A stretch of DNA of 31,947 bases, from positions 1-31,947 of IMG/VR virus record IMGVR_UViG_3300013010_000040; one strand, given 5' to 3'. This DNA is from a virus. Below the pieces are notes generated by a model, which saw only the letters and a list, made by a program, of their open reading frames with translations, was not told the DNA's origin and did not search any database. The position numbers were made by a program, and so were the translations under genes. The stretch's first letter is position 1. Every line of letters begins with the position of its first letter. Positions 4,154 through 31,947 of the stretch are shown in pieces.

Positions 4154-4183
4154 TTGTAGTATAAAATATGATACTTATATTTG
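4154..4183 (+). promoter_or_regulatory. Bacteroidota-type promoter (TTG, 19 bp, TATATTTG)
   Basis: TTG at 4154-4156 (within TTGTTGTTG), a 19-base spacer and TATATTTG at 4176-4183 match the Bacteroidota -33/-7 consensus. The spacer begins TAGTATAAAAT, the left half of the 20-bp palindrome seen in other early promoters here. It drives the structured leader and the small-gene block starting at 4371. Confidence 0.75.
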
Positions 4184-4189
4184 TTTTAT

Positions 4190-4370
4190 ACAAACGCAGA
4201 AAGAAAAGTTCTTTGAAAGGTATTTAAGTAAAGGAAGGCGGCACGTAAGTCTCAACATTCAAGATTGTGGTAGCGAAACTTTTAATAGCCACGTACACTA
4301 CTAGCGGAAACAGCAGATCTTCCTTTATTTTTAAGCCTTTTTTTAATTCAAACAAACAAACACAACGAAT
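4190..4370 (+). ncRNA. Long structured 5' leader or small RNA
   Basis: About 180 bases separate the promoter from the first good start. TAAAGGAAG (4229-4237) pairs perfectly with CTTCCTTTA (4319-4327), closing a domain of about 100 bases. Inside, GTGG (4267-4270) can pair with CCAC (4289-4292), and the near-repeats TAGCGAAAC and TAGCGGAAAC occur. T-rich runs follow the closing stem, as in an attenuator, then an A/C-rich stretch leads to ATG. It matches no RNA family I know; it could be a regulatory leader, an attenuator or a separate small RNA. Confidence 0.45.
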
Positions 4371-5157: not shown

Positions 5158-5360
5158 AGCGAATCACTATTCCAGCTTATGAGCTGACGAAGATCACGAG
5201 AGACGGATCTGAGAAATGCAAATTGATTTCCTACAACAGATGGGAAGGAACTTACACAGTCAAGTTCAAGAAAGGAGGCTTGATGAATTACTTTCCTCAA
5301 GAGCTTCGAGAAGTCTTCGGAGTAGAATTATCAGAAAAAGAACGGGATTTGTTGACTTAG
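5154..5360 (+). CDS. Hypothetical small protein (68 aa)
   Basis: Begins MKRITIPAYELTKI and contains a short beta-type core (KLISYNRWEGTYTVKFKKGG) followed by an acidic C-terminal helix. ATGA overlap with the gene upstream supports the start. The 3' end contains the TTG of the next promoter and the stop codon falls in the palindrome at 5358, so the gene end and the promoter share sequence. No family recognised. Confidence 0.8.
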   Translation: MKRITIPAYELTKITRDGSEKCKLISYNRWEGTYTVKFKKGGLMNYFPQELREVFGVELSEKERDLLT

Positions 5361-5383
5361 TAGAAAATTTTATACTATATTTA
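5352..5383 (+). promoter_or_regulatory. Promoter with 20-bp palindromic operator
   Basis: TTGTTG at 5349-5354 and TATATTTA at 5376-5383 flank TAGTAGAAAATTTTATACTA (5358-5377), the exact reverse complement of the palindrome in the promoters at 17463 and 30891. The last base of the -7 box is A rather than G and the spacer from the nearer TTG is 21, so it may be weaker. An A/C-rich leader follows to the ATG at 5403. Confidence 0.65.
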
Positions 5384-12631: not shown

Positions 12632-15025
12632 ATGCTACAAGTATCAACACTGCTTCGTGAGGTTATTGCTTCAATGTCAGTGACTTTGAAAATTGATTCA
12701 GTTGAAGCTTCTGGCTCAAACTGGAAAGTATATTGTTCCAACACTCAATATTTAAACACGCTCTCTGAGCTTGAAATTGGTAGCGTTCAATATGTTGTTG
12801 AAAGCTTTGTTCAAGATGAATATTTGATTCTTGAAGGAGCAGTCGAACCGACTCCAGGTATTTTCGCTCTACGGAATCCGACTTTCAAGCATGGCAAGTA
12901 TCAAGCTGTTCTGACAGAGCTTTCAGATCCGCAAGACTTGGACATCATGCCTTTGATTTGGATGCTTGAAAATCAGCAGCGCACACGGCCTTCAGAGCTT
13001 GATAGCAAAATCGAAAGCGAAGGTCAAGTCAGACTTTTCTTTGCAAATACAGATGACTGGTCGAGAGACACAGAACAGATGTATGAAGAAATCTTAAATC
13101 CGGTTCTGACTCTTGTCAATTTGTTTCTTGTAGAGCTTGAAGCGAATAAAAGAACTGGTGATTTTGGTGTGATCGAAACTACAAATCATGCGAAGTTGAC
13201 TATCGGAGGCGGAGACTTAGGAAGTACTGAAGCTCAAGGAATCTTCCAGAGAACGCTTTCAGGAATAGAGGTGACTATCAATCTTCCTATTATGGTTGAC
13301 TTTGATTGCTCTGATACTGCTTCAACTCGTGTATGTCCTCAAGTATCTATCTTAGACGCTAATGGTAATATAATTACAATGGTTGACGCAGGCTCTTCTT
13401 ACACTGTTAGCGGTGGAGGCGGTAGTGGCTTTGTTGAGAACTCAGATTCAAGCTATACTAATACAGTGGCAAGTGGTGCTACTTTAGTGCTGCCTGATAT
13501 TACAGTTACAGATTCAGATGGTTCAACTTCTTCTGTGCCTAGTGTCCAAAACGTACTTTGTACGCCTTCAGCAGATGCTACAGTAGAAAATAGCGACAGT
13601 AGTTACACTAATACTGTGGCAAGTGGTGGAACGCTTACGCTTCCTGACATCACAGTTACAGACAGCGATGGGAGCACGTTCACTCAGGCTTCTGTTGTGA
13701 ATGTAGTTTGTAGTTTAGCGGCTGATGGTACGGTGAATGTAAATAGTGTATTTTTTGACAATGTAGCTTCAGGCGGAACCTTAAACATCGAGGTAAGACA
13801 ATCGAGTGGAAGCACATTAATAGGTTCAAAACAAGGTGCACATTTTAGAATACCTGACAGCGTCATTACTTTAGACAATACGGACGGGTCTACATTATCT
13901 ACTACAAACGTCTTAGCAACTGATGCATCGACTATTACCGCTCCTGATGCTACTGCTGTAATTAAAAACACTTTAAATGCAGTTCTTAGGTCAGAGTTAG
14001 TTCCTAGCAATGTGAGCGAGGATATTATCATTGGCGATGCAACCATTAACATTAACCAGAGCGATGGAACTTTAATTGCAAGCGCAACTGTAACAGCAGA
14101 GGGTTCAGGAGTTTATAATGTCGCTGATTCAACTGTCAATGTGGTTAATACTCTTGGCACAGTTTTATCAAGTAACTCAGTAAAAGCCACAGTTACTGAC
14201 ACAGTTCTAGCACCTGATGCAAATGTTGAAAACTCAGACAACAGTTACACTAACACAGTTGAAAGTGCTGGCACGCTTACGCTTTCTGATATTACGGTGA
14301 CATATCCAAGTGGGGCAACCGAGGCATTCCCCGCAGCGATAAACATCACAGCAAGTGCCGATGTAAGCGATGAGATATTTTTAGAAGCGGATTCGGTTGT
14401 AGAAAGTGGGGGTGCGGTAAGTGTAATGACTGACCAAGGCGGAAAGAATAACAACGCGAACCAACATGTAGGCTCAACACAGCCAAGCCTTGTCGCTTCG
14501 GATGCGTCATACAATAATCAACCTGTGGTCGTTTTTGCGGCTGACCAAATGTATTTTGATAGACCATTCGCAGCACACCTGAAAGATGGGTTTTCGTTTT
14601 TCTTTGTTGGGCGGGTTGATACAGTGGCGAGATTCGATTGGCTTGGCAGTAAATACGGGAACACCGTTTGCTCGCTTGGTGGCTTTGAGGACTTAGGATA
14701 CACGAGGATTCGAACAAAAGAACTAAGCGCATCGACTAACACCACTCAGAACACAGCGACAAATTTAGATACAGACGGTATTTGGACTCTAATAGGTACG
14801 GGCGCGTCTACGAACTTATACTTAAATGGAGTTTTGGTAATTAGCGCAAGCCAACACCAAGAAAATGGTTCTTTCGGTTGGTTGGGGGCGTTGTCAACTC
14901 AATTAAGAAGTAGGGGGCGATTTGGTACAATGACTTTTAGAAACGGCTACGACCTGACACAGATAAACGCAAGAGGGTCAGCCTTCGGGACAAAGTACGG
15001 ATTCACTTGGACAACAATAGTATGA
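12632..15025 (+). CDS. Neck/tail-completion-like protein fused to beta repeats and LamG-like domain
   Basis: 797 residues in three parts. Residues 1-235 look like a stand-alone neck or tail-terminator protein of Bacteroidota phages (VTLKIDSVEASGSNWKVYCS, VRLFFANTDDWSRDTEQMYE). A glycine hinge (SGGGGSG, about 260) follows. Residues 265-580 hold beta-sandwich-like repeats with the motif VENSDSSYTNTVASG and LPDITVTDSDGST, clear twice in tandem and again near 530-560. Residues 580-797 resemble a concanavalin/LamG sugar-binding domain (FSFFFVGRVDTVARF, TNLYLNGVLVISAS, GWLGALS). It is probably displayed on the neck or tail and sticks to host or surrounding glycans. The C-terminal domain differs in codon use from the rest, suggesting domain swapping. 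Confidence 0.75.
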   Translation: MLQVSTLLREVIASMSVTLKIDSVEASGSNWKVYCSNTQYLNTLSELEIGSVQYVVESFVQDEYLILEGAVEPTPGIFALRNPTFKHGKYQAVLTELSDPQDLDIMPLIWMLENQQRTRPSELDSKIESEGQVRLFFANTDDWSRDTEQMYEEILNPVLTLVNLFLVELEANKRTGDFGVIETTNHAKLTIGGGDLGSTEAQGIFQRTLSGIEVTINLPIMVDFDCSDTASTRVCPQVSILDANGNIITMVDAGSSYTVSGGGGSGFVENSDSSYTNTVASGATLVLPDITVTDSDGSTSSVPSVQNVLCTPSADATVENSDSSYTNTVASGGTLTLPDITVTDSDGSTFTQASVVNVVCSLAADGTVNVNSVFFDNVASGGTLNIEVRQSSGSTLIGSKQGAHFRIPDSVITLDNTDGSTLSTTNVLATDASTITAPDATAVIKNTLNAVLRSELVPSNVSEDIIIGDATININQSDGTLIASATVTAEGSGVYNVADSTVNVVNTLGTVLSSNSVKATVTDTVLAPDANVENSDNSYTNTVESAGTLTLSDITVTYPSGATEAFPAAINITASADVSDEIFLEADSVVESGGAVSVMTDQGGKNNNANQHVGSTQPSLVASDASYNNQPVVVFAADQMYFDRPFAAHLKDGFSFFFVGRVDTVARFDWLGSKYGNTVCSLGGFEDLGYTRIRTKELSASTNTTQNTATNLDTDGIWTLIGTGASTNLYLNGVLVISASQHQENGSFGWLGALSTQLRSRGRFGTMTFRNGYDLTQINARGSAFGTKYGFTWTTIV
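13430..13690 (+). repeat. Tandem coding repeat in the neck adhesin
   Basis: Two units of about 150 bases beginning near 13433 and 13583 encode nearly the same stretch (VENSDSSYTNTVASG, LPDITVTDSDGST). A third, more distant copy begins near 14225. The copies differ mainly at third codon positions in the shared core, so they are selected at protein level. Confidence 0.85.
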
Positions 15026-15252
15026 TAGTATTCGAGACATTAGACTTTCAAAAGGACATCGAAGACATCGACGCTTTCCTATTCGGAAGAATAAACCAGA
15101 CTACTTGGCAGACAGAGCCCATAGAATTTGAGGGCAAAACTTACATCAAGTATAAGTCAACACTTGACGAATGGAAAGCAGTCAACACAACTGAAATAGA
15201 ATTGCCACCAATAGAAATAGAAGATCTCACGAGTGATGAAGAAAATACTTAA
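15022..15252 (+). CDS. Hypothetical small acidic protein (76 aa)
   Basis: MIVFETLDFQKDIEDIDAFL, then IEFEGKTYIKYKSTLDEW and a very acidic C-terminus (PPIEIEDLTSDEENT). The start is the ATG overlapping the adhesin stop (ATGA at 15022-15025); a TTG five codons earlier lies within the adhesin gene. Its pairing with the adhesin suggests a folding helper or partner for it, but the family is unknown. Confidence 0.75.
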   Translation: MIVFETLDFQKDIEDIDAFLFGRINQTTWQTEPIEFEGKTYIKYKSTLDEWKAVNTTEIELPPIEIEDLTSDEENT

Positions 15253-16442: not shown

Positions 16443-16646
16443 CTACTCTGCTGATCTTAGAAAGTTTGGCGATAGGTTGTTGATTTCAGCCTCTAGCCTT
16501 CCGATTCTTTTATTCGCCTCCTTCTTCTCCTTTTCCGTAGAGTCTATTCCTAGATTTGCGGAAATTACCGACATCTCATGTAGTTTCTTATCTATGAGCT
16601 TTCTTACTTTCTCGTTTGTGTAATACAATGCAACTCCTTCAATCAT
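16443..16646 (-). CDS. Hypothetical small coiled-coil protein (67 aa)
   Basis: Minus-strand protein MIEGVALYYTNEKVRKLIDK, then a charged helical region with STEKEKKEANKRIGRLEAEI, likely a coiled coil. Its start overlaps the stop of the phosphoesterase gene (ATGA), so the two are co-translated. Unknown function, perhaps a partner of the enzyme. Confidence 0.72.
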   Translation of the reverse strand: MIEGVALYYTNEKVRKLIDKKLHEMSVISANLGIDSTEKEKKEANKRIGRLEAEINNLSPNFLRSAE

Positions 16647-17353
16647 AAGTCCATAAGTAAGTTAATGGGCGTTCTGCCCTGATTAAGAACAACAACGCAT
16701 CCAATAGCAGGCTTTTTGCCTCTCTTAGCGTATGCCATAGCGTAGGAATTGTGATCTATTCCACAACCTACCTGAGTGCCGAAGACCTTAAACTTCTGGC
16801 CGACAACCCATTCAGTATAAGCCTGAGTGTGTAGGTGTCCTTGAACCGTGGACATCATATCTGCCTTGCACTTGGTTCTAGCTGTTCCTGCTTCACCATG
16901 AATGTATTGCACATCGTCAATCACGAGCCTGTCTACAAAATCCCATTGATCAACCTCCAATACATCTTTATATTCTCTAATCCATTTTGTAGGAACTGCG
17001 GAGGTCTGAGCTTTGCGCATTATGATCCGGTCATGGTTTCCGATAATAACGGTAGCAACCGGAAAGTCATCGCGCCACCTTGCTATCTTTTTTATTGCAA
17101 ATTCTAGTTCGTCAGAGCCTCCGAGTCCGTTTGCGTCTGTTTCGTGATATGAGCTAAAGTGATTGTCAATTACATCGCCAATAAATACAATTTTATTGCA
17201 GTTGAATTTTTCCTTTTGCTTTATGCAGAAATCTAGATAGCCATCCAGGCAGAAAGGTTCGTGCAGGTCTCCTATTACTAGGACTCTGTTGGACTCATCT
17301 TTTAGGCTTCCCACAAGCCAGTTGAGTCCTTTGCTTAATCTCGGTCTACTCAT
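16643..17353 (-). CDS. Calcineurin-like metallophosphoesterase
   Basis: 236 residues with the full set of metal-binding motifs: GDLH (28-31), GDVID (59-63), GNHD (105-108), a histidine in YIHGE near 150 and GHLHT near 173. This family cleaves phosphodiesters or phosphomonoesters using two metal ions; phage members are varied in substrate (nucleic acids, cyclic nucleotides or protein phosphates). It sits on the minus strand in the middle of tail genes, with the terminator behind it, so it is an added accessory gene (moron). Breaking a host cyclic-nucleotide defence signal is one possible role but cannot be read from the sequence. Confidence 0.88.
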   Translation of the reverse strand: MSRPRLSKGLNWLVGSLKDESNRVLVIGDLHEPFCLDGYLDFCIKQKEKFNCNKIVFIGDVIDNHFSSYHETDANGLGGSDELEFAIKKIARWRDDFPVATVIIGNHDRIIMRKAQTSAVPTKWIREYKDVLEVDQWDFVDRLVIDDVQYIHGEAGTARTKCKADMMSTVQGHLHTQAYTEWVVGQKFKVFGTQVGCGIDHNSYAMAYAKRGKKPAIGCVVVLNQGRTPINLLMDL

Positions 17354-17448: not shown

Positions 17449-17521
17449 TTGCTTTTTTGTTGTAGTATAAAATTTTCTACTATATTTGTTCTATCAAACA
17501 ATCTAAAACAAACAAGATGAA
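17449..17521 (+). repeat. 73-bp exact repeat, copy 1 (promoter and leader)
   Basis: Identical over 73 bases to 30877-30949. It contains the TTGTTG, palindrome, TATATTTG box, the A/C-rich leader and the first five bases of the gene (ATGAA). Flanking bases differ. Confidence 0.97.
17457..17488 (+). promoter_or_regulatory. Strong Bacteroidota promoter with palindromic spacer
   Basis: TTGTTG (17457-17462), an 18-base spacer from the second TTG and TATATTTG (17481-17488). The near-perfect palindrome TAGTATAAAATTTTCTACTA (17463-17482) fills the spacer and touches the -7 box, as an operator would. It drives the 91-residue gene. The region 17354-17448 back to the minus-strand gene is AT-rich; a weak TATCTTTA reading on the minus strand might serve the phosphoesterase gene. 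Confidence 0.85.
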
Positions 17522-17792
17522 AGCACAAACAACGAAGAAAGTACAAATCCAACTATCAACAATAGAAGCGTCGCGGATAAACAAGAGGGTTGATGAGATC
17601 CTAGAAAGCGTGATTCACGGTGGGCATAGAAAAGCTCTTGCACAGAATCTAAGAAGAGAATTACTCACAAAGGATAACACTCTGAAAATCATAAATGATA
17701 ACACGTACCACGTTTACGACATGTTAGAGGCCGTTAATTGTAGTACCTCTACAAGGATTGTTCAATTGTTTCAAGATAATCTAGATGCATAG
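17517..17792 (+). CDS. Hypothetical small cassette protein (91 aa)
   Basis: Starts MKAQTTKKVQIQLSTIEASR behind the 73-bp repeated promoter and leader. Helical throughout and weakly basic, with RINKRVDEILESVIHGGHRK and LAQNLRRELLT; no family recognised. The end is followed within 12 bases by the hairpin element, so the gene sits exactly between two repeated flanks. The other copy of the flanks encloses an unrelated 56-residue gene. An early expressed accessory role is inferred from the promoter type, which differs from that of the tail genes around it. Confidence 0.8.
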   Translation: MKAQTTKKVQIQLSTIEASRINKRVDEILESVIHGGHRKALAQNLRRELLTKDNTLKIINDNTYHVYDMLEAVNCSTSTRIVQLFQDNLDA

Positions 17793-17803
17793 TAGATTTC
17801 CTG

Positions 17804-17853
17804 ACACCTCACTCGCTCCGCCTCCTTCATTGGTCGCGGAGCTTTTGAGGTGT
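17804..17853 (+). repeat. Conserved hairpin element, copy 1
   Basis: Outer stem ACACCTCA (17804-17811) with TGAGGTGT (17846-17853); inner stem GCTCCGC (17815-17821) with GCGGAGC (17836-17842); 14-base loop CTCCTTCATTGGTC. Forty-five bases (from 17807) recur at 31126-31170 with two pyrimidine changes. No T-run follows, so it is not a normal terminator. It lies ten bases before the next ATG (17863). Although the frame stays open through it, the two differences would change amino acids, so selection seems to be on RNA or DNA. Confidence 0.85.
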
Positions 17854-17862
17854 AAAGCTAAG

Positions 17863-18117
17863 ATGAAATCAAGAGAATCAATATTACTTGAAAGGCCAGT
17901 TTTGATAGGGCAGCACGGCAAGAAGAAGTTGACAAGTATGATTTTTACAGGGGATTTAATCACTGTCAAAGACAAAGAACTCACTTCATGTATTTTTGCA
18001 GAGCCTACACATCAGATATTTGGCTGCTTTAGTGACTACTTTAATGAGAGGTCAGAGCTTGCAGCTTTGGACTTAAAGGAATGCAAGCCAGAAATTATTA
18101 AAATTAAAAACTTATAA
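17863..18117 (+). CDS. Hypothetical protein (84 aa)
   Basis: MKSRESILLERPVLIGQHGK followed by a beta-rich middle (SMIFTGDLITVKDKELTSC) and an end rich in charged residues. The ATG after the hairpin element is preferred; a longer frame from 17785 would translate through the hairpin. Unknown function. One-base overlap (TAATG) with the next gene indicates coupling to the tail genes. Confidence 0.75.
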   Translation: MKSRESILLERPVLIGQHGKKKLTSMIFTGDLITVKDKELTSCIFAEPTHQIFGCFSDYFNERSELAALDLKECKPEIIKIKNL

Positions 18118-18401
18118 TGTTGACGAAATTATTCATTTGGCTCACGAGGTTAAAATATAAGCGCAACGCTGGAGGCGCAGAGAACGCTTTTGACAGCTCT
18201 TTCCCTTTGCGTGAATATGTTTGGGTGTTAGAAGATAAAAGACTCACACAATTAGCGGGAAACAGCAAAGAAGCAGTGATTGCTGAGGCTCACGTAAAAG
18301 GCAAGCGAGGTTGGCTACATGAACGCATTGAATATCGCCATGTGATTAGAAGCTGGAAAGAAGCTGGAATCTGGGTAAAAGCAAAAAACAATACAGCATG
18401 A
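18117..18401 (+). CDS. Hypothetical basic protein (94 aa)
   Basis: MLTKLFIWLTRLKYKRNAGG, then YVWVLEDKRLTQLAGNSKEA and a basic C-terminal helix (RHVIRSWKEAGIWVKAK). No family recognised. It overlaps the gene before by one base and the next by ATGA, so it is part of the tail-completion operon and may be a minor structural or assembly protein. Confidence 0.78.
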   Translation: MLTKLFIWLTRLKYKRNAGGAENAFDSSFPLREYVWVLEDKRLTQLAGNSKEAVIAEAHVKGKRGWLHERIEYRHVIRSWKEAGIWVKAKNNTA

Positions 18402-18838
18402 AAAGATTGATTGAAGTAGCTAGGAACATTCAAAAGACAACTGATAGAAGAGTGTTCTTTCTGACTTTTACGAGAGGGGATGCTCAAAACATGGTCATTG
18501 ATCTTAATACAGATGGCCAGTTGCGTCTTGGTATCACTTCTGATGGTTCTGCTCTTCCGGTTTATTCGAGAGCAACAGAGATCATCTCAGGAGGCGAGAA
18601 GATTGCAGGCACACCTTTCACACTTTACGACACTGGAGCTTTTTATGATTCTTTCAAAATGAGCGATGTCAGTGGAGACTTTGTGACAATATCTGCCGAC
18701 ACAGTGAAACCGAATAAAGACCTTCTTGAGTATGGTGATTTACTTGGCTTGACAGAAGGAAATCTTTCAAAGCTCGTTGATTACATTATCCCAATAGTTC
18801 GAGACATTGTAATTAAAGAAGCATTGAAATTAAAATAG
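18398..18838 (+). CDS. Putative neck/tail-completion protein (gp10-like)
   Basis: 146 residues. The segment TPFTLYDTGAFYDSFKMSDV resembles the pattern with a DTG turn found in tail-completion (HK97 gp10-like and virion morphogenesis) proteins, and the end (DLLEYGDLLGLTEGNLSKLV) recalls prophage proteins of Bacteroidota that I have seen next to tail genes. It would sit at the head-tail joint. Moderate confidence from motif and place. Confidence 0.6.
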   Translation: MKRLIEVARNIQKTTDRRVFFLTFTRGDAQNMVIDLNTDGQLRLGITSDGSALPVYSRATEIISGGEKIAGTPFTLYDTGAFYDSFKMSDVSGDFVTISADTVKPNKDLLEYGDLLGLTEGNLSKLVDYIIPIVRDIVIKEALKLK

Positions 18839-18862
18839 CGCAACTGGAAAAAGCTTCTTATT

Positions 18863-18891
18863 TTGAATAAATTGCTTAAGTTCTAATTTTG
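18863..18891 (+). promoter_or_regulatory. Promoter before tape-measure operon
   Basis: TTG (18863-18865), an 18-base spacer and TAATTTTG (18884-18891); the ATG at 18904 follows after 12 bases. Both elements fit the Bacteroidota consensus and lie in a 65-base non-coding gap. Confidence 0.7.
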
Positions 18892-18903
18892 TATTTTTAC
18901 GCA

Positions 18904-19356
18904 ATGAACGTGCACACCTCTATTGACACACTACCAATTGGTAATTACTGGAAGATCATAGAAACAGGCGACGTTCATCTTCTTCTTGACGGTAAGAATG
19001 ACGGCACAATTAAAACAGAGCATCTTCAAACTGCATGGGCGTTAATTGAAGAAGAAATGTTTGATCTACTTGCCGAGGATAAGGACTACATCGAGCAAGT
19101 AAACGATGAGCGTCGTGAATATTTGCGAAAGCTTAAAGCGTTGATTGTTGGTGACACATTATCGATCTTACAATATAAACAGACAAGCTTGTACACACAA
19201 GAAGAGTCAGGCGATCTAGAACCTTTTAAATATCACAAAAGCATTGCAGTTCTTGAGGCTCATCTTGGATTTCCAATAGATGATTCAAAAATGTCGGTTC
19301 GCAAATATTACATTCACGCACAATTGATGAAAGAAAATGGCACAAAACCGAATTGA
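18904..19356 (+). CDS. Hypothetical tail assembly protein (chaperone position)
   Basis: 150 residues beginning MNVHTSIDTLPIGNYWKIIE, soluble and helical, with an acidic middle (EEEMFDLLAEDKDYIEQVND). It is directly upstream of and overlaps the tape measure by 20 bases, the place of tail assembly chaperones; no slippery sequence leading to a second frame was seen, so frameshift production is not claimed. An upstream TTG (18889) overlaps the promoter and is not used as the start. Confidence 0.7.
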   Translation: MNVHTSIDTLPIGNYWKIIETGDVHLLLDGKNDGTIKTEHLQTAWALIEEEMFDLLAEDKDYIEQVNDERREYLRKLKALIVGDTLSILQYKQTSLYTQEESGDLEPFKYHKSIAVLEAHLGFPIDDSKMSVRKYYIHAQLMKENGTKPN

Positions 19357-21877
19357 ACGGTCAGACATAATTGCACCAGACGCGCTTATTAGTGTCATTA
19401 AAGAGGGTCGTGATCTGGAACATCAACTGATCAAGGTTCTTGAAGTGATACAACAGATCATGAAGGGTGGGTCAATCAAGTCAGGGGGTGATTTAAAGGC
19501 ATACACAGAACAGGTGCGTGACTTGAATGAAACATCAAAGACACTTGCAAAGACGCAGAATATCGTCAAAGAATCAACAAAGCAACTTGACGAATCAATT
19601 GCTGAAGAAATCGTTCTAAACAAAGAGCTGAATAAGCAAGTTGACGACGTGAACGGAAGCTTTACACAAAACGTCAAGCTGTCTGTTCGATATCGCCTTG
19701 AGTTGAAAAAGCTTGCAGAGCAGCAAAAAAATCTAACAAAGCAGCTTGATCGAGGGCTTATAAGTACAAGCAATTATGTAGAAAAGTCAACTGTTCTTTC
19801 AAAGCGACAGAAAGAATTGACAGTTGCAAACCAACAGCTTGGAATTACAATGCGTCAGCAGGTGAAGCAAGCAAATGCTGCAGGTACTTCTTTCGATCAA
19901 CTTAGTATTCATCTTGGTAAGCTTCGCGACACATACAGAAAGCTCACTGCGGAAGAACGAAAATCACCTTTTGGAGTTTCATTAAAAAAATCAATTACAC
20001 AGCTTGATAAGCAGGTAAAGGCAAACGATGAATCCATCGGAAACTTTCAGCGGTCTGTAGGTAATTATCGAAAAGGGCTTGGCAAAACAATTGAGAAACA
20101 AAATTTCATGGGTCAGTCGCTTGGCGGCTTAATGAAAAATTTCAGTGCTTTGTTGTCACCTGTTGGCCTCGTTGCTGGCGCGGTGTCTGGATTATCTGCC
20201 TTGTATTTAAGCAGCACGGGCGGCTCACTTGACCTTGCTTCAGCAACTGCGCGACTGCGTGGAAGTTTTCAGGGTTTGGCAAACGACTTTGGCGAGGCTG
20301 CTGGTGCTGACGGGAAGGGAAATGGAGTTCTTGACAAAGCTGCAGCGTGGCTTACAGCGTGGGTTGGCGTGGTGACAGGGGCGAAAACATACATTACAGG
20401 TGAGCTGGAAAAGATGGCCACAAATAGACTTGCTGACCTGGAGATTGAAGCCATCAAAGCTGAAGCACTTGCGGCAAGGCAAATTGACACACTTGAAGAA
20501 TTAAAGCAGGTGCGTGACGATACATATCTCCCATTTTCTAAAAGGTTGAAGGCCGCAAGTGATGCTGTTGACATACTCACGAAAAGAGAAGATGCAGAGT
20601 TAAAGGTTGCAGAGGAAAGGTTGAAAATGTTTCAGCAGCTCTTGAAAAATGACCCCAACAATTTGCAACGTCAGAAGCTTGTGGCACAGCAGTTGTTGGC
20701 AATCTCAAGAATTGAAAGAGAAAACGAACGACTTCGCACAGAGGCAGTCAGAGCAGTCGGGCGTGTTCAGCGTCAAATTGATGCAGACAAAGCTAAACGA
20801 GACAGAGAGGCAGCTGCATTACAGAAAAAGCGAGAAGAAGAAGCAGAGAAGGCTGCTGCAAAAAAGAGAAAAGAAGATGAACTTGCAGAGAAAGCGAGAC
20901 TAAAAGAGATAGATGACTACCAGAAGCTTGATCAACTTGTGTATGATTCACAGATTGCAACTGCTGAATTTGAAGAAAATGCAGAACAAGTCTTTGAGTT
21001 GCGTCGTGAAAAGCTTCAACAGCAAAAAGAATTTGAACTTAAAAATGAGAAGCTGACGACTGCAGAAAGGTTGATTATTCAACGTCAATACATTAATGAC
21101 TTGAACAACATTAATCGTGAAGAAGATGAATACAAAAAACAGCAGCGTGAAAAAGAGCTTAACGCAGCAATTGAGCAAGCAAATCAATTGACATCAATTT
21201 TTGAGGATGCAATGAATAGGCGAAGCGAACTGCGACAAGAACAAATCGTTCGTGAAATTGGATACGCCAAAGAAAATTTAGCGAGACAAGAAGACTTAGC
21301 CGATCGTGGATTAGCAAACACACTTGCTTTTGAGCAGAAGAAAGCCGCAGAACTTGAGGCTCAAAGAGATAGAGAGGCAAAGAAACAGGAGAGGCGTCAG
21401 AAAACTCTTGCATATTTGACAGCTTTCACAGAATACTTGAAAGAGAATCCGAATACAGCAGCAGGAAAAGCACTAGCTCAAGTAGCAATAGCTGAAACTG
21501 TTTCAGGTTTATTCTACGAAGGAACAGAGTCAGTTGGTGATGATAACGCAACTAAGTGGAGAAACACTGGAAGAGATGACTATTTGATTGGTGTGCATAA
21601 AGGTGAGCGAGTGATCAAAACCTCTGACAACAAAAGAATTGGAAACATGAGCAATGAAGATCTTGTTGCTATGGCAGAAGGTCATCGAAAAGGAGAATAC
21701 CAAGTCAACGCTTTGAATGATACGAATATCGTGAACGAGCTTCGTTCGGTTCGAAAAGCAGTCAGCTCTTCAGGACAAGTGATCGATGTTGACAAGCTCG
21801 GACAGATGATCGATAAGAGAATTGAAGATGGTATTAAGAAGACAATAGTGCATAAAAGGAAGCCGAGAAGAATATGA
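19337..21877 (+). CDS. Tail tape measure protein
   Basis: 846 residues, long coiled coils (20-250 and 370-690, e.g. EKARLKEIDDYQKLDQLVYD), a hydrophobic stretch near 268-292 (FSALLSPVGLVAGAVSG) and a conserved-looking end (YEGTESVGDDNATKWRNTGR, KGERVIKTSDNKRI). Tape measures set tail length at about 0.15 nm per residue, which would give a tail near 125 nm, and pass into the host envelope during DNA ejection. The 5' four-fifths use CGT, GGC and GGG codons much more than the tail end and the next gene, suggesting a recombination joint near 21.4 kb. ATGA overlap with the next gene. Confidence 0.9.
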   Translation: MAQNRIERSDIIAPDALISVIKEGRDLEHQLIKVLEVIQQIMKGGSIKSGGDLKAYTEQVRDLNETSKTLAKTQNIVKESTKQLDESIAEEIVLNKELNKQVDDVNGSFTQNVKLSVRYRLELKKLAEQQKNLTKQLDRGLISTSNYVEKSTVLSKRQKELTVANQQLGITMRQQVKQANAAGTSFDQLSIHLGKLRDTYRKLTAEERKSPFGVSLKKSITQLDKQVKANDESIGNFQRSVGNYRKGLGKTIEKQNFMGQSLGGLMKNFSALLSPVGLVAGAVSGLSALYLSSTGGSLDLASATARLRGSFQGLANDFGEAAGADGKGNGVLDKAAAWLTAWVGVVTGAKTYITGELEKMATNRLADLEIEAIKAEALAARQIDTLEELKQVRDDTYLPFSKRLKAASDAVDILTKREDAELKVAEERLKMFQQLLKNDPNNLQRQKLVAQQLLAISRIERENERLRTEAVRAVGRVQRQIDADKAKRDREAAALQKKREEEAEKAAAKKRKEDELAEKARLKEIDDYQKLDQLVYDSQIATAEFEENAEQVFELRREKLQQQKEFELKNEKLTTAERLIIQRQYINDLNNINREEDEYKKQQREKELNAAIEQANQLTSIFEDAMNRRSELRQEQIVREIGYAKENLARQEDLADRGLANTLAFEQKKAAELEAQRDREAKKQERRQKTLAYLTAFTEYLKENPNTAAGKALAQVAIAETVSGLFYEGTESVGDDNATKWRNTGRDDYLIGVHKGERVIKTSDNKRIGNMSNEDLVAMAEGHRKGEYQVNALNDTNIVNELRSVRKAVSSSGQVIDVDKLGQMIDKRIEDGIKKTIVHKRKPRRI

Positions 21878-29109: not shown

Positions 29110-29141
29110 TAGTTTTACTTTAAAATTTTCTACTACATTTG
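29110..29141 (+). promoter_or_regulatory. Promoter with half palindrome before dnaA-like gene
   Basis: TACATTTG at 29134-29141 is a -7 box, preceded by TAAAATTTTCTACTA (29121-29135), the right half of the early palindrome. The left half and the TTG are not conserved, so this promoter may escape the factor that binds the full palindrome. Leader CAAACAAACAACAAAAG leads to the ATG at 29161. Confidence 0.6.
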
Positions 29142-29160: not shown

Positions 29161-29667
29161 ATGAACGAAACAAGAAAAAAATTCCGTGATAGATACGCTT
29201 TTTCAAAGCTTGAATCTATTTTAAACGATGTCTGTATGATCATGGGCGAAGCAAAAGAAAACGTGATCAGCAAAAGAAGAGATGGAGATTTTGTTCTCGC
29301 TAGACATTTATATCACTACATCGCAGCGAAAAACACTCCTTTCACGCTCACTCAGATCGGCAAGGTTTCAGGCGGTAGAGATCACGCGACTGTTTTGAAC
29401 TCAAAAAAGAGAATACTTGAATTGATTGAGCCAGTAGGCCCAAACAATAAGATTCCAAATCAAAATATTTTTGACATCGTCAAAGAGCTTGACAAATTTT
29501 CAAATCCTGAAGCTGTAAACTTCGAGCAAGAAGATAGCGAAGTTGAAGAAGTTGAAAAGCTATGTCGAGAAGTCCTTTCAACCTTTGATTCAATTTCAGA
29601 ACATCTTGAAGAGTTGAGAGAGAAATTCAAAATCAAATCAAAATTATACACAAGTAAATTTAGATAA
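29161..29667 (+). CDS. DnaA domain IV-like DNA-binding protein
   Basis: 168 residues. Residues 15-80 look like the DNA-binding domain of DnaA: a helical start (NDVCMIMGEAKENVISKRRD), then LTQIGKVSGGRDHATVLNSK, matching the DnaA signature with GGRDH at 71-75. The ATPase domain is missing; the remaining part is acidic and helical (EEDSEVEEVEKLC type composition). It could bind DnaA-box-like sites, start phage replication or block host initiation. It leads the early operon at the right end of the window. Confidence 0.85.
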   Translation: MNETRKKFRDRYAFSKLESILNDVCMIMGEAKENVISKRRDGDFVLARHLYHYIAAKNTPFTLTQIGKVSGGRDHATVLNSKKRILELIEPVGPNNKIPNQNIFDIVKELDKFSNPEAVNFEQEDSEVEEVEKLCREVLSTFDSISEHLEELREKFKIKSKLYTSKFR

Positions 29668-29882
29668 TGTCAGTAAAAATTGAAGAGTGGACTACTATCC
29701 AGGACTACCACGAGAAAAAAAGTACTGGAAATCTTGTTTACTTTCGAAGAGTAATCGGAGAAGCAATCAAGAACCAAGAGCCTATCATGGTAGAAGTAAA
29801 CGGAATACAAGAAGCTGTATTCATAGTCGGTCAAGCTTTAGTTCGCAAGAACGGAGGCACAATTCTTTTGAGAGATGTCTGA
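29667..29882 (+). CDS. Hypothetical small protein (71 aa)
   Basis: MSVKIEEWTTIQDYHEKKST, then AIKNQEPIMVEVNGIQEAVF and LVRKNGGTILLRDV: beta strands with helices. Overlaps with the DnaA-like gene (TAATG) and the annealing protein gene (8 bases) suggest a role in replication or recombination. Family not recognised. Confidence 0.8.
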   Translation: MSVKIEEWTTIQDYHEKKSTGNLVYFRRVIGEAIKNQEPIMVEVNGIQEAVFIVGQALVRKNGGTILLRDV

Positions 29883-30420
29883 AAAACTACCAGCGAAGAA
29901 GGAATCAGCGATCAAAGTAATTGCATCCGAACTTGAGTTGAAAGGCAAGATTGAAACTTTCAATCAACTGCTATCGAAAGAGCCTCGACCGGCTTGGGTG
30001 AGAACTCATCCATTCCAGAAGAAACTGAAGTACATTCCGATTGAGATCATCGAAGAGATGCTTCGTAAGATCTTCCAGCAGTTTGATATTGAAGTCAAGC
30101 AAGTGCAGCCGCTTTTCAATTCTGTTCAAGTGACAGTTCGAGTCAACTACTTGCATCCAATTACAAATCAATGGAGATATGTCGATGGAGTTGGAGCCGT
30201 CAACGTGCAGACTGACAAAGGAGCTTCTGCTGCTGACTTAGGAGCTATCAAAGCGAACGCTATTCAGTTAGCTGTTCCAGCCGCGAAATCGTATGCAATC
30301 AAAGACGCTGTCGAAAATCTAGGAACTATCTTTGGTGCGAACTTAAATCGTAGAGATGTTCCTGAAATCAATTCACCTTGGGTTGATCATTCTACTGCTA
30401 TGGATAAAACTAAAAACTAA
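29875..30420 (+). CDS. Rad52-like single-strand annealing protein
   Basis: 181 residues. The centre, WVRTHPFQKKLKYIPIEIIE then VRVNYLHPITNQWRYVDGVG, and the helix AADLGAIKANAIQLAVPAAK followed by DAVENLGTIFGANLNRRD, fit the Rad52/22-like (Sak) annealing proteins of phages. Such rings bind single-stranded DNA made by a 5'-3' exonuclease and anneal it to complementary DNA. A RecE-like exonuclease gene lies less than 1 kb downstream, completing the pair. Confidence 0.82.
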   Translation: MSEKLPAKKESAIKVIASELELKGKIETFNQLLSKEPRPAWVRTHPFQKKLKYIPIEIIEEMLRKIFQQFDIEVKQVQPLFNSVQVTVRVNYLHPITNQWRYVDGVGAVNVQTDKGASAADLGAIKANAIQLAVPAAKSYAIKDAVENLGTIFGANLNRRDVPEINSPWVDHSTAMDKTKN

Positions 30421-30876: not shown

Positions 30877-30949
30877 TTGCTTTTTTGTTGTAGTATAAAA
30901 TTTTCTACTATATTTGTTCTATCAAACAATCTAAAACAAACAAGATGAA
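30877..30949 (+). repeat. 73-bp exact repeat, copy 2 (promoter and leader)
   Basis: Identical to 17449-17521, including the promoter, the palindrome, the leader and ATGAA. Located between early recombination genes here, in contrast to the tail-region setting of copy 1. Confidence 0.97.
30885..30916 (+). promoter_or_regulatory. Strong promoter with palindromic spacer, copy 2
   Basis: TTGTTG (30885-30890), palindrome TAGTATAAAATTTTCTACTA (30891-30910) and TATATTTG (30909-30916). It drives the 56-residue cassette gene and probably the exonuclease. Confidence 0.85.
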
Positions 30950-31124: not shown

Positions 31125-31170
31125 ACCTCACTCGCTCCGCTTCCTTCATTGGTCGCGGAGCTTTCGAGGT
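31125..31170 (+). repeat. Conserved hairpin element, copy 2
   Basis: ACCTC (31125-31129) with GAGGT (31166-31170) as outer stem; GCTCCGC (31134-31140) with GCGGAGC (31155-31161) as inner stem; loop TTCCTTCATTGGTC. Two differences from copy 1: one in the loop, one next to the outer stem. Located 16 bases before the exonuclease start. Confidence 0.85.
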
Positions 31171-31185
31171 AAAAAACGACGAAAG

Positions 31186-31947
31186 ATGAAACAAATCAGA
31201 ACAGATCTAACGATTGAAGAATACCACCAACTGCCAGCGATATCAGCCTCGACGCTGAAAAAAGCTGCTCATTCAGAGCTTTCACTAAAGCACTACATGA
31301 GTACAAAAATGACAGAAGAGCATATTCCGCACCTCGACTTCGGAAACGCTTTCGAGCTTGCTCTCATGGATGAAGCAAACAAAACTCAAGAGTTTGATAA
31401 AAAAGTCAAAGTCGAGCCAACAAAAGAATGGATCGAGAAAGCTCTCGAATCAAATCCAGAACTGAAATCTCCAACAGCTTCGAAAGTCTACAAAGAAGCA
31501 AAACAAGAATGGTTCGATAAGCTGCCTGAAAACTGCTACGTCATAGCAGATGAAGGAAAAGAATCAATGGAGTCAATCAACGGAATGATTGCACAACTCA
31601 AGAAAGATCCTACTGTCTGGGCTTTACTAGGAGCTACGACTTACCAAGTTTCGTGCTTCTGGAAAGATGAAGAAACAGGACTTGATCTAAAGTCTCGGCC
31701 AGACGTGGCAAAAGCAAATAAAAATGTTCAGCTCGACATCAAGACAACGAGAGACGCTTCTCCACACGCTTTTGCAAGACAAGCGACTCAACTGCTATAT
31801 CCTATTCAAGCAATTATGCAAATAGATGGAGCAATCAAGTCAGGACTTATGGAGTCAGTCGAAAAGTATTACTGGCTTGCAGTTGAAAAAGAAGCTCCTT
31901 ACAATTATGCTCTCTACTACTTCACTGATGTAGATCGCTCGATTGTA
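31186..31947 (+). CDS. RecE-like PD-(D/E)XK exonuclease, N-terminal 254 residues (partial)
   Basis: The gene runs off the window. It begins MKQIRTDLTIEEYHQLPAIS with SASTLKKAAHSELS, an opening typical of RecB/Cas4/RecE-type phage exonucleases; HLDFGNAFELALMD (49-62) gives the first motif, and the core is D173 (KSRPDVA) with D184-I-K186 (QLDIKTT), followed by QATQLLYPIQAIMQ. It would resect double-stranded ends for the Rad52-like annealing protein. The gene follows the second hairpin element and so may be regulated by it. Confidence 0.87.
   Translation, partial: MKQIRTDLTIEEYHQLPAISASTLKKAAHSELSLKHYMSTKMTEEHIPHLDFGNAFELALMDEANKTQEFDKKVKVEPTKEWIEKALESNPELKSPTASKVYKEAKQEWFDKLPENCYVIADEGKESMESINGMIAQLKKDPTVWALLGATTYQVSCFWKDEETGLDLKSRPDVAKANKNVQLDIKTTRDASPHAFARQATQLLYPIQAIMQIDGAIKSGLMESVEKYYWLAVEKEAPYNYALYYFTDVDRSIV

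Follow-up and report, generated by a model that had tools for sequence, protein, structure and literature searches.

Repeated phage promoters as probable anchors of exchangeable accessory-gene cassettes

Outside the T4-type phages, little is understood, to our knowledge, of how phages acquire and lose small accessory genes while keeping expression undisturbed. The stretch of DNA analysed here (the window, an entire IMG/VR virus record of 31,947 bases) raises this question at two loci, at which the same promoter region and the same hairpin enclose different small genes. We consider it probable that these loci carry accessory-gene cassettes which can be exchanged and which have repeated phage promoters as their anchors. 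The window was compared with related IMG/VR phages, which are few and all metagenome assemblies. One of them (L004) spans the end-start joint of the window and adds ~530 bases absent from it, which points to a nearly complete, circularly permuted genome. The phage was assigned to Bacteroidota on the basis of its promoter type. The sites are numbered s1 to s5 and their features are listed in Table 1.

Table 1. Positions of the cassette features in the window.
Feature	Positions	Strand	Remarks
s1 repeat copy	17449-17521	+	promoter, near-palindrome, leader, start codon
s2 repeat copy	30877-30949	+	second of two
s1 operator-like near-palindrome	17463-17482	+	TAGTATAAAATTTTCTACTA; 9/10 positions pair
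s2 operator-like near-palindrome	30891-30910	+	
s1 -7 box	17481-17488	+	TATATTTG; Bacteroidota sigma-A type
s3 operator	29116-29135	+	directly behind intrinsic terminator
s4 operator	4157-4176	+	degenerate; contents vary among relatives
s5 operator	5358-5377	+	67-aa gene variably present in relatives
s1 cargo gene, 91 aa	17517-17792	+	
s1 hairpin	17807-17851	+	among relatives, window only
84-aa gene	17863-18117	+	3' of s1 hairpin; absent in relatives
94-aa gene	18117-18401	+	diverged homologue (54-57% aa) of L080 gene directly behind promoter
Putative Rad52-like annealing protein gene	29875-30420	+	PF04098, E 0.008; weak, below Pfam cut-off
258-bp block identical to L004	30890-31147	+	putative exchange footprint
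s2 cargo gene, 56 aa	30945-31115	+	unrelated 62-aa gene instead in L081
s2 hairpin	31126-31170	+	conserved in L004, L006, L081
Exonuclease VIII-like gene	31186-31947	+	phrog_412, E 7e-36; truncated by window end

The first-pass annotation had described an exact repeat of 73 bp at s1 and s2, and the maximal exact repeat has indeed this length and the same coordinates. Such a match within 32 kb cannot be due to chance. The repeat contains a 20-bp near-palindrome which extends into a -7 box, followed by an A-rich leader and a start codon. The consensus of the Bacteroidota sigma-A -7 box was given as TANNTTTG and later revised to TAHHTTTG (PMC6847099), and the corresponding TATATTTG is present in both repeat copies; at s5, the box deviates from this consensus (TATATTTA). 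The near-palindrome was also found at three more promoters of the window (starting at 4157 for s4, 5358 for s5 and 29116 for s3), with between 7 and 9 of the 10 positions pairing across the sites. Composition-shuffled windows searched at the same stringency gave 0, 0, 0, 0 and 1 matches. Instead of the two-copy affair first noted, the window contains at least five operator-bearing promoters, each bordering changes in gene content.

We infer that the palindrome is the site of a putative regulator. The palindrome together with the -7 box was also observed in four phage contigs (L086, 4182-4207; L088, 3152-3177; L089, 6326-6351; L092, 136-161) that have at most two genes in common with the window and are apparently unrelated to it, indicating that the operator also occurs beyond this group of phages. 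Scanning the loci of distant relatives for a palindrome beside TANNTTTG gave no convincing operator, and comparison of the promoter with GenBank phages gave weak matches only. The sole match inspected, in Flavobacterium phage FpV4, precedes an HNH endonuclease gene and is devoid of the full palindrome. A host regulon was also set aside: the palindrome with the -7 box matched once in a genome collection of 84,980 species, on a Desulfobulbaceae contig where no phage gene is visible near the palindrome.

The location of s2 in recombination genes was confirmed, since it lies between the genes of a weakly Rad52-like protein and of an exonuclease VIII-like protein. Promoter and hairpin are kept there in the window, L004 and L081. 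The window, L004 and L006 carry the same 56-aa gene between these elements (the L006 contig starts within this gene and contains the hairpin), and L081 carries an unrelated 62-aa gene. The window and L004 share no exact run longer than the 258 bp which begin one base before the s2 operator and end in the hairpin loop. On the left of this block, 120 bp are ~97% identical, and the exonuclease gene on its right is mostly 75-95% identical per 60-bp bin. This identical block with more diverged flanks looks like the trace left by a recent exchange of the cassette. The second-longest exact run between these two genomes, 201 bp from position 5357, begins one base before the s5 operator.

The other copy lies, as annotated, in tail genes, between a metallophosphoesterase gene on the minus strand and a tail protein gene (phrog_6195). 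The left flank of s1 is 93-95% identical across relatives and the contents on its right differ, the four genomes compared (the window, L080, L003 and L078) having four different contents, one of them empty. In the window, the 91-aa gene is followed by the hairpin and by genes of 84 and 94 aa. In L080, the site is empty and the homologue of the 94-aa gene comes directly behind the promoter. L003 carries a methyltransferase, a PLP enzyme, a 90-aa protein and a second methyltransferase, and L078 carries proteins of 110, 60 and 92 aa and then an L003-like block, so that the 90-aa-type gene is present twice there; this doubled gene type around the L078 block is possibly another recombination anchor. 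The hairpin is absent from s1 in all three relatives. The earlier claim that the flanks are conserved and the contents are not thus stands for the promoter at s1 and for promoter and hairpin at s2, and fails for the hairpin at s1, suggesting that at s1 the promoter is the fixed frame and that the hairpin came with the cargo. With two unrelated cargos between promoter and hairpin at s2 and four different contents behind the s1 promoter, the swap-site reading withstands the check proposed with it in the first-pass annotation and as a whole appears largely supported by the related IMG/VR phages.

The two cargo ORFs of 91 and 56 aa between repeat and hairpin were confirmed, and no similarity between them was detected by BLASTP, in agreement with their annotation as unrelated genes. 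Neither the 91-, 84- and 56-aa proteins nor the s1-region DNA matched GenBank phages, and the 91-aa protein is without known relatives. Structure prediction yielded low-confidence models for the two cargo proteins, and a fold search with them found nothing; PADLOC gave no matches for the small cargo proteins.

Both annotated 45-nt hairpins are present, with exactly two differences between them. Their folding energies are -31.4 (s1) and -24.6 (s2) kcal/mol, corresponding to z = -5.4 and -4.3 against dinucleotide shuffles, of which 0/200 were equally stable. The next start codon follows the end of the hairpin after 11 nt at s1 and 15 nt at s2. The inner stem is followed by 3-4 T, and terminator prediction does not call the hairpin. 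Stem changes in L081 retain pairing as G-U, the pair changes being too few to test the fold. Nothing was found in Rfam, the hairpin DNA had no match in GenBank phages, and a near-exact hairpin pattern had none in IMG/VR. With a looser pattern, IMG/VR returned the relatives plus one further match, L084, which has nothing visibly in common with this phage. The hairpin may act in RNA, either as an insulator that shields the downstream leader when upstream genes change or by weak termination; control of the exonuclease is a further candidate role.

At s3, the promoter is directly followed by a DnaA-C-domain gene in the window and L081, and L004 carries two additional genes (61 and 72 aa) between them. 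At s4, a 47-aa gene is found in L004 and L006 and nothing in L008 and L010. At s5, the 67-aa gene is present in the window and L004 and missing in L010. A further difference in L010 is the insertion of a promoter along with a 90-aa gene. Gene content differs directly behind all five operators, and all five are at changed borders (13 of ~46 borders changed), giving p about 0.001, a rough guide as the borders were counted by hand and their set was not fixed beforehand. Not all gene changes are at operators, and structural genes contain long identical runs as well: the phages of this group are generally mosaic.

The leaders were then compared across loci. The s1 leader of the window is identical to the s2 leaders of the window and of L004, the s1 leader of L003 groups with s2 of L081 (alignment score 30/32), and the leader nearest to s1 of L078 is that of s3 in L004. 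Upstream of the operator, s2 of the window carries the s1-type GTTGTAG, versus GATGGTAG or GATGGTGG at s2 of L004 and L081. Two loci of one genome thus resemble each other more than their counterparts in other genomes, which is what exchange between loci would produce. Since promoter and leader alleles are common to different loci, exchange would also be ectopic. As the s1 hairpin is found in the window only, together with an s2-type leader, we think that an s2-type cassette was copied into s1.

The following mechanism could account for such exchanges. Each promoter, with its near-palindrome running into the -7 box, its A-rich leader and its start codon, would provide a common left homology arm, and at s1 and s2 the 45-nt hairpin before the next start codon would provide a common right arm, one that relatives share at s2 only. 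Recombination in the arms could take place at one locus between two phages or between different loci; the intervening gene would be replaced, and the new one would end up in the right place behind a promoter. The arms may be used by the exonuclease and the annealing protein that the phage encodes, and these exonuclease VIII-like and weakly Rad52-like proteins could thereby drive cassette exchange. Rad52-like recombinases of phages are known to generate mosaics via diverged homology (PMC3945230). More tentatively, one repeated, regulated promoter-leader and the hairpin might serve as standard plug-in connectors, crossing over moving genes between loci or phages and the hairpin insulating the downstream core gene from the plugged-in one.

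Another explanation could be that ordinary mosaicism is combined with a shared regulon: genes would change at harmless borders, one regulator would keep the promoters alike, and the repeats would be regulatory rather than swap arms. The conservation of the palindrome at five sites and its presence with the -7 box in apparently unrelated contigs fit this explanation, as do the gene changes and long identical runs away from operators. However, regulator binding accounts for the palindrome and not for leaders that are identical beyond it across loci, and it leaves an identical block terminating in the hairpin loop unexplained. We regard this explanation as quite unlikely. The possibility that similar promoters were merged or misjoined during assembly, making copies identical or misplacing cargo, deserves mention because the record is metagenome-assembled and exact repeats are typical failure points. 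It is highly improbable, given that the order of the flanks on both sides of s1 and s2 matches contigs from other samples, that the same leader allele is present at s2 in L004, and that several contigs show varying contents.

The s2 hairpin could also serve the exonuclease gene, as a regulatory or processing element (a weak terminator, an RNase site or an insulator of the leader) which is unrelated to exchange and reached s1 once by chance. In the contigs covering s2, it always lies ~15 nt before the exonuclease start codon, and both the pairing retained in L081 and the T residues behind the inner stem agree with such a role. But the identical block stops within the hairpin loop, the s1 copy precedes an unrelated gene, and the hairpin is not called as a terminator. 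A role of this kind to the exclusion of exchange seems somewhat doubtful. A function for the exonuclease gene and the promoter-anchored cassettes that we favour can, moreover, be true together.

Several known systems resemble these cassettes. In T4-type phages, promoter early stem-loop elements (PeSLs) were reportedly described by Arbiol in 2010 and Comeau in 2014. According to papers citing this work, these are repeated promoter and stem-loop motifs between small variable genes, for which homology-based modular shuffling was proposed (PMC4503421, PMC3950731, PMC5931544). Repeated promoter motifs beside small variable genes are the common trait, with five operator promoters here and varying contents behind all of them. 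Early transcription, a further PeSL trait, is predicted for the present promoters in the first-pass annotation. The differences lie in the phage, which is a ~32-kb non-T4 phage with a Bacteroidota-type promoter and head/packaging genes of other PHROG families, in the hairpin, which lies behind the cargo instead of next to the promoter and does not clearly form a terminator, and in the palindrome, which overlaps the promoter. PeSLs are described there as composites of promoter and terminator stem-loop; here, the s3 promoter is directly preceded by a called terminator. By analogy, the cassettes would work like T4 PeSLs; we do not file them as such because the setting is not T4-type and the composite promoter-terminator form is not established.

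Morons, known from lambdoid and other phages, are small additional genes that bring their own promoter and sit between two genes which are neighbours in related phages; a terminator of their own and expression in the lysogen also characterise them. The empty s1 of L080 and the s3 insertion of L004 likewise involve extra genes between neighbours of relatives, and in L010, alone here, a promoter was inserted together with its gene. In contrast to morons, at s1 to s3 the promoter stays and the gene alone changes, the promoter being already present in empty s1 and s3, and the hairpin is not a clear terminator. In the archaeal virus HGTV-1, many ORFs are preceded by a conserved promoter-like motif that contains an inverted repeat and for which roles in regulation and shuffling were proposed (PMC3950731). 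This arrangement resembles ours, although HGTV-1 is an archaeal virus and the available text of that source gives no exchange footprint for its motif. In cluster K mycobacteriophages, the start-associated sequences (SAS/ESAS), repeats with inverted repeats, precede the start codons of different gene families and a role in translation initiation was proposed; unlike here, neither a -7 box nor a swap model is described for them in the available part of that source (PMC3203893).

In one small phage group, the arms can thus be seen alongside an empty site, several alternative contents and a seemingly fresh exchange footprint, which makes the cassette model testable. Searching behind the operator is also a route to accessory genes of unknown function in Bacteroidota phages, possible counter-defence genes included.

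Some further observations concern individual sites. Directly behind the s3 operator, positions 29161-29667 encode a protein of 168 aa that carries the DnaA C-terminal DNA-binding domain (PF08299, E 1e-14) and may be a DNA-binding regulator or act in replication. At s4 of the window (4183-4370), ~150 bp without an ATG ORF precede the next gene and are absent in L008 and L010; they are perhaps a decayed cargo gene. A non-coding RNA cargo there (4190-4345) was rejected, its fold being not unusual (z -0.9). The metallophosphoesterase gene and a 67-aa gene (16443-17353) lie on the minus strand and are surrounded by structural genes of the plus strand, which makes s1 a divergent promoter region. The tail-region stretches 13712-15238 and 18834-21246 are diverged or replaced between relatives that are >90% identical around them. 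Finally, the s1 cargo of L003 (1738-4674) and L078 (6205-9911) comprises two N6/N4 methyltransferases and a PLP-dependent enzyme.
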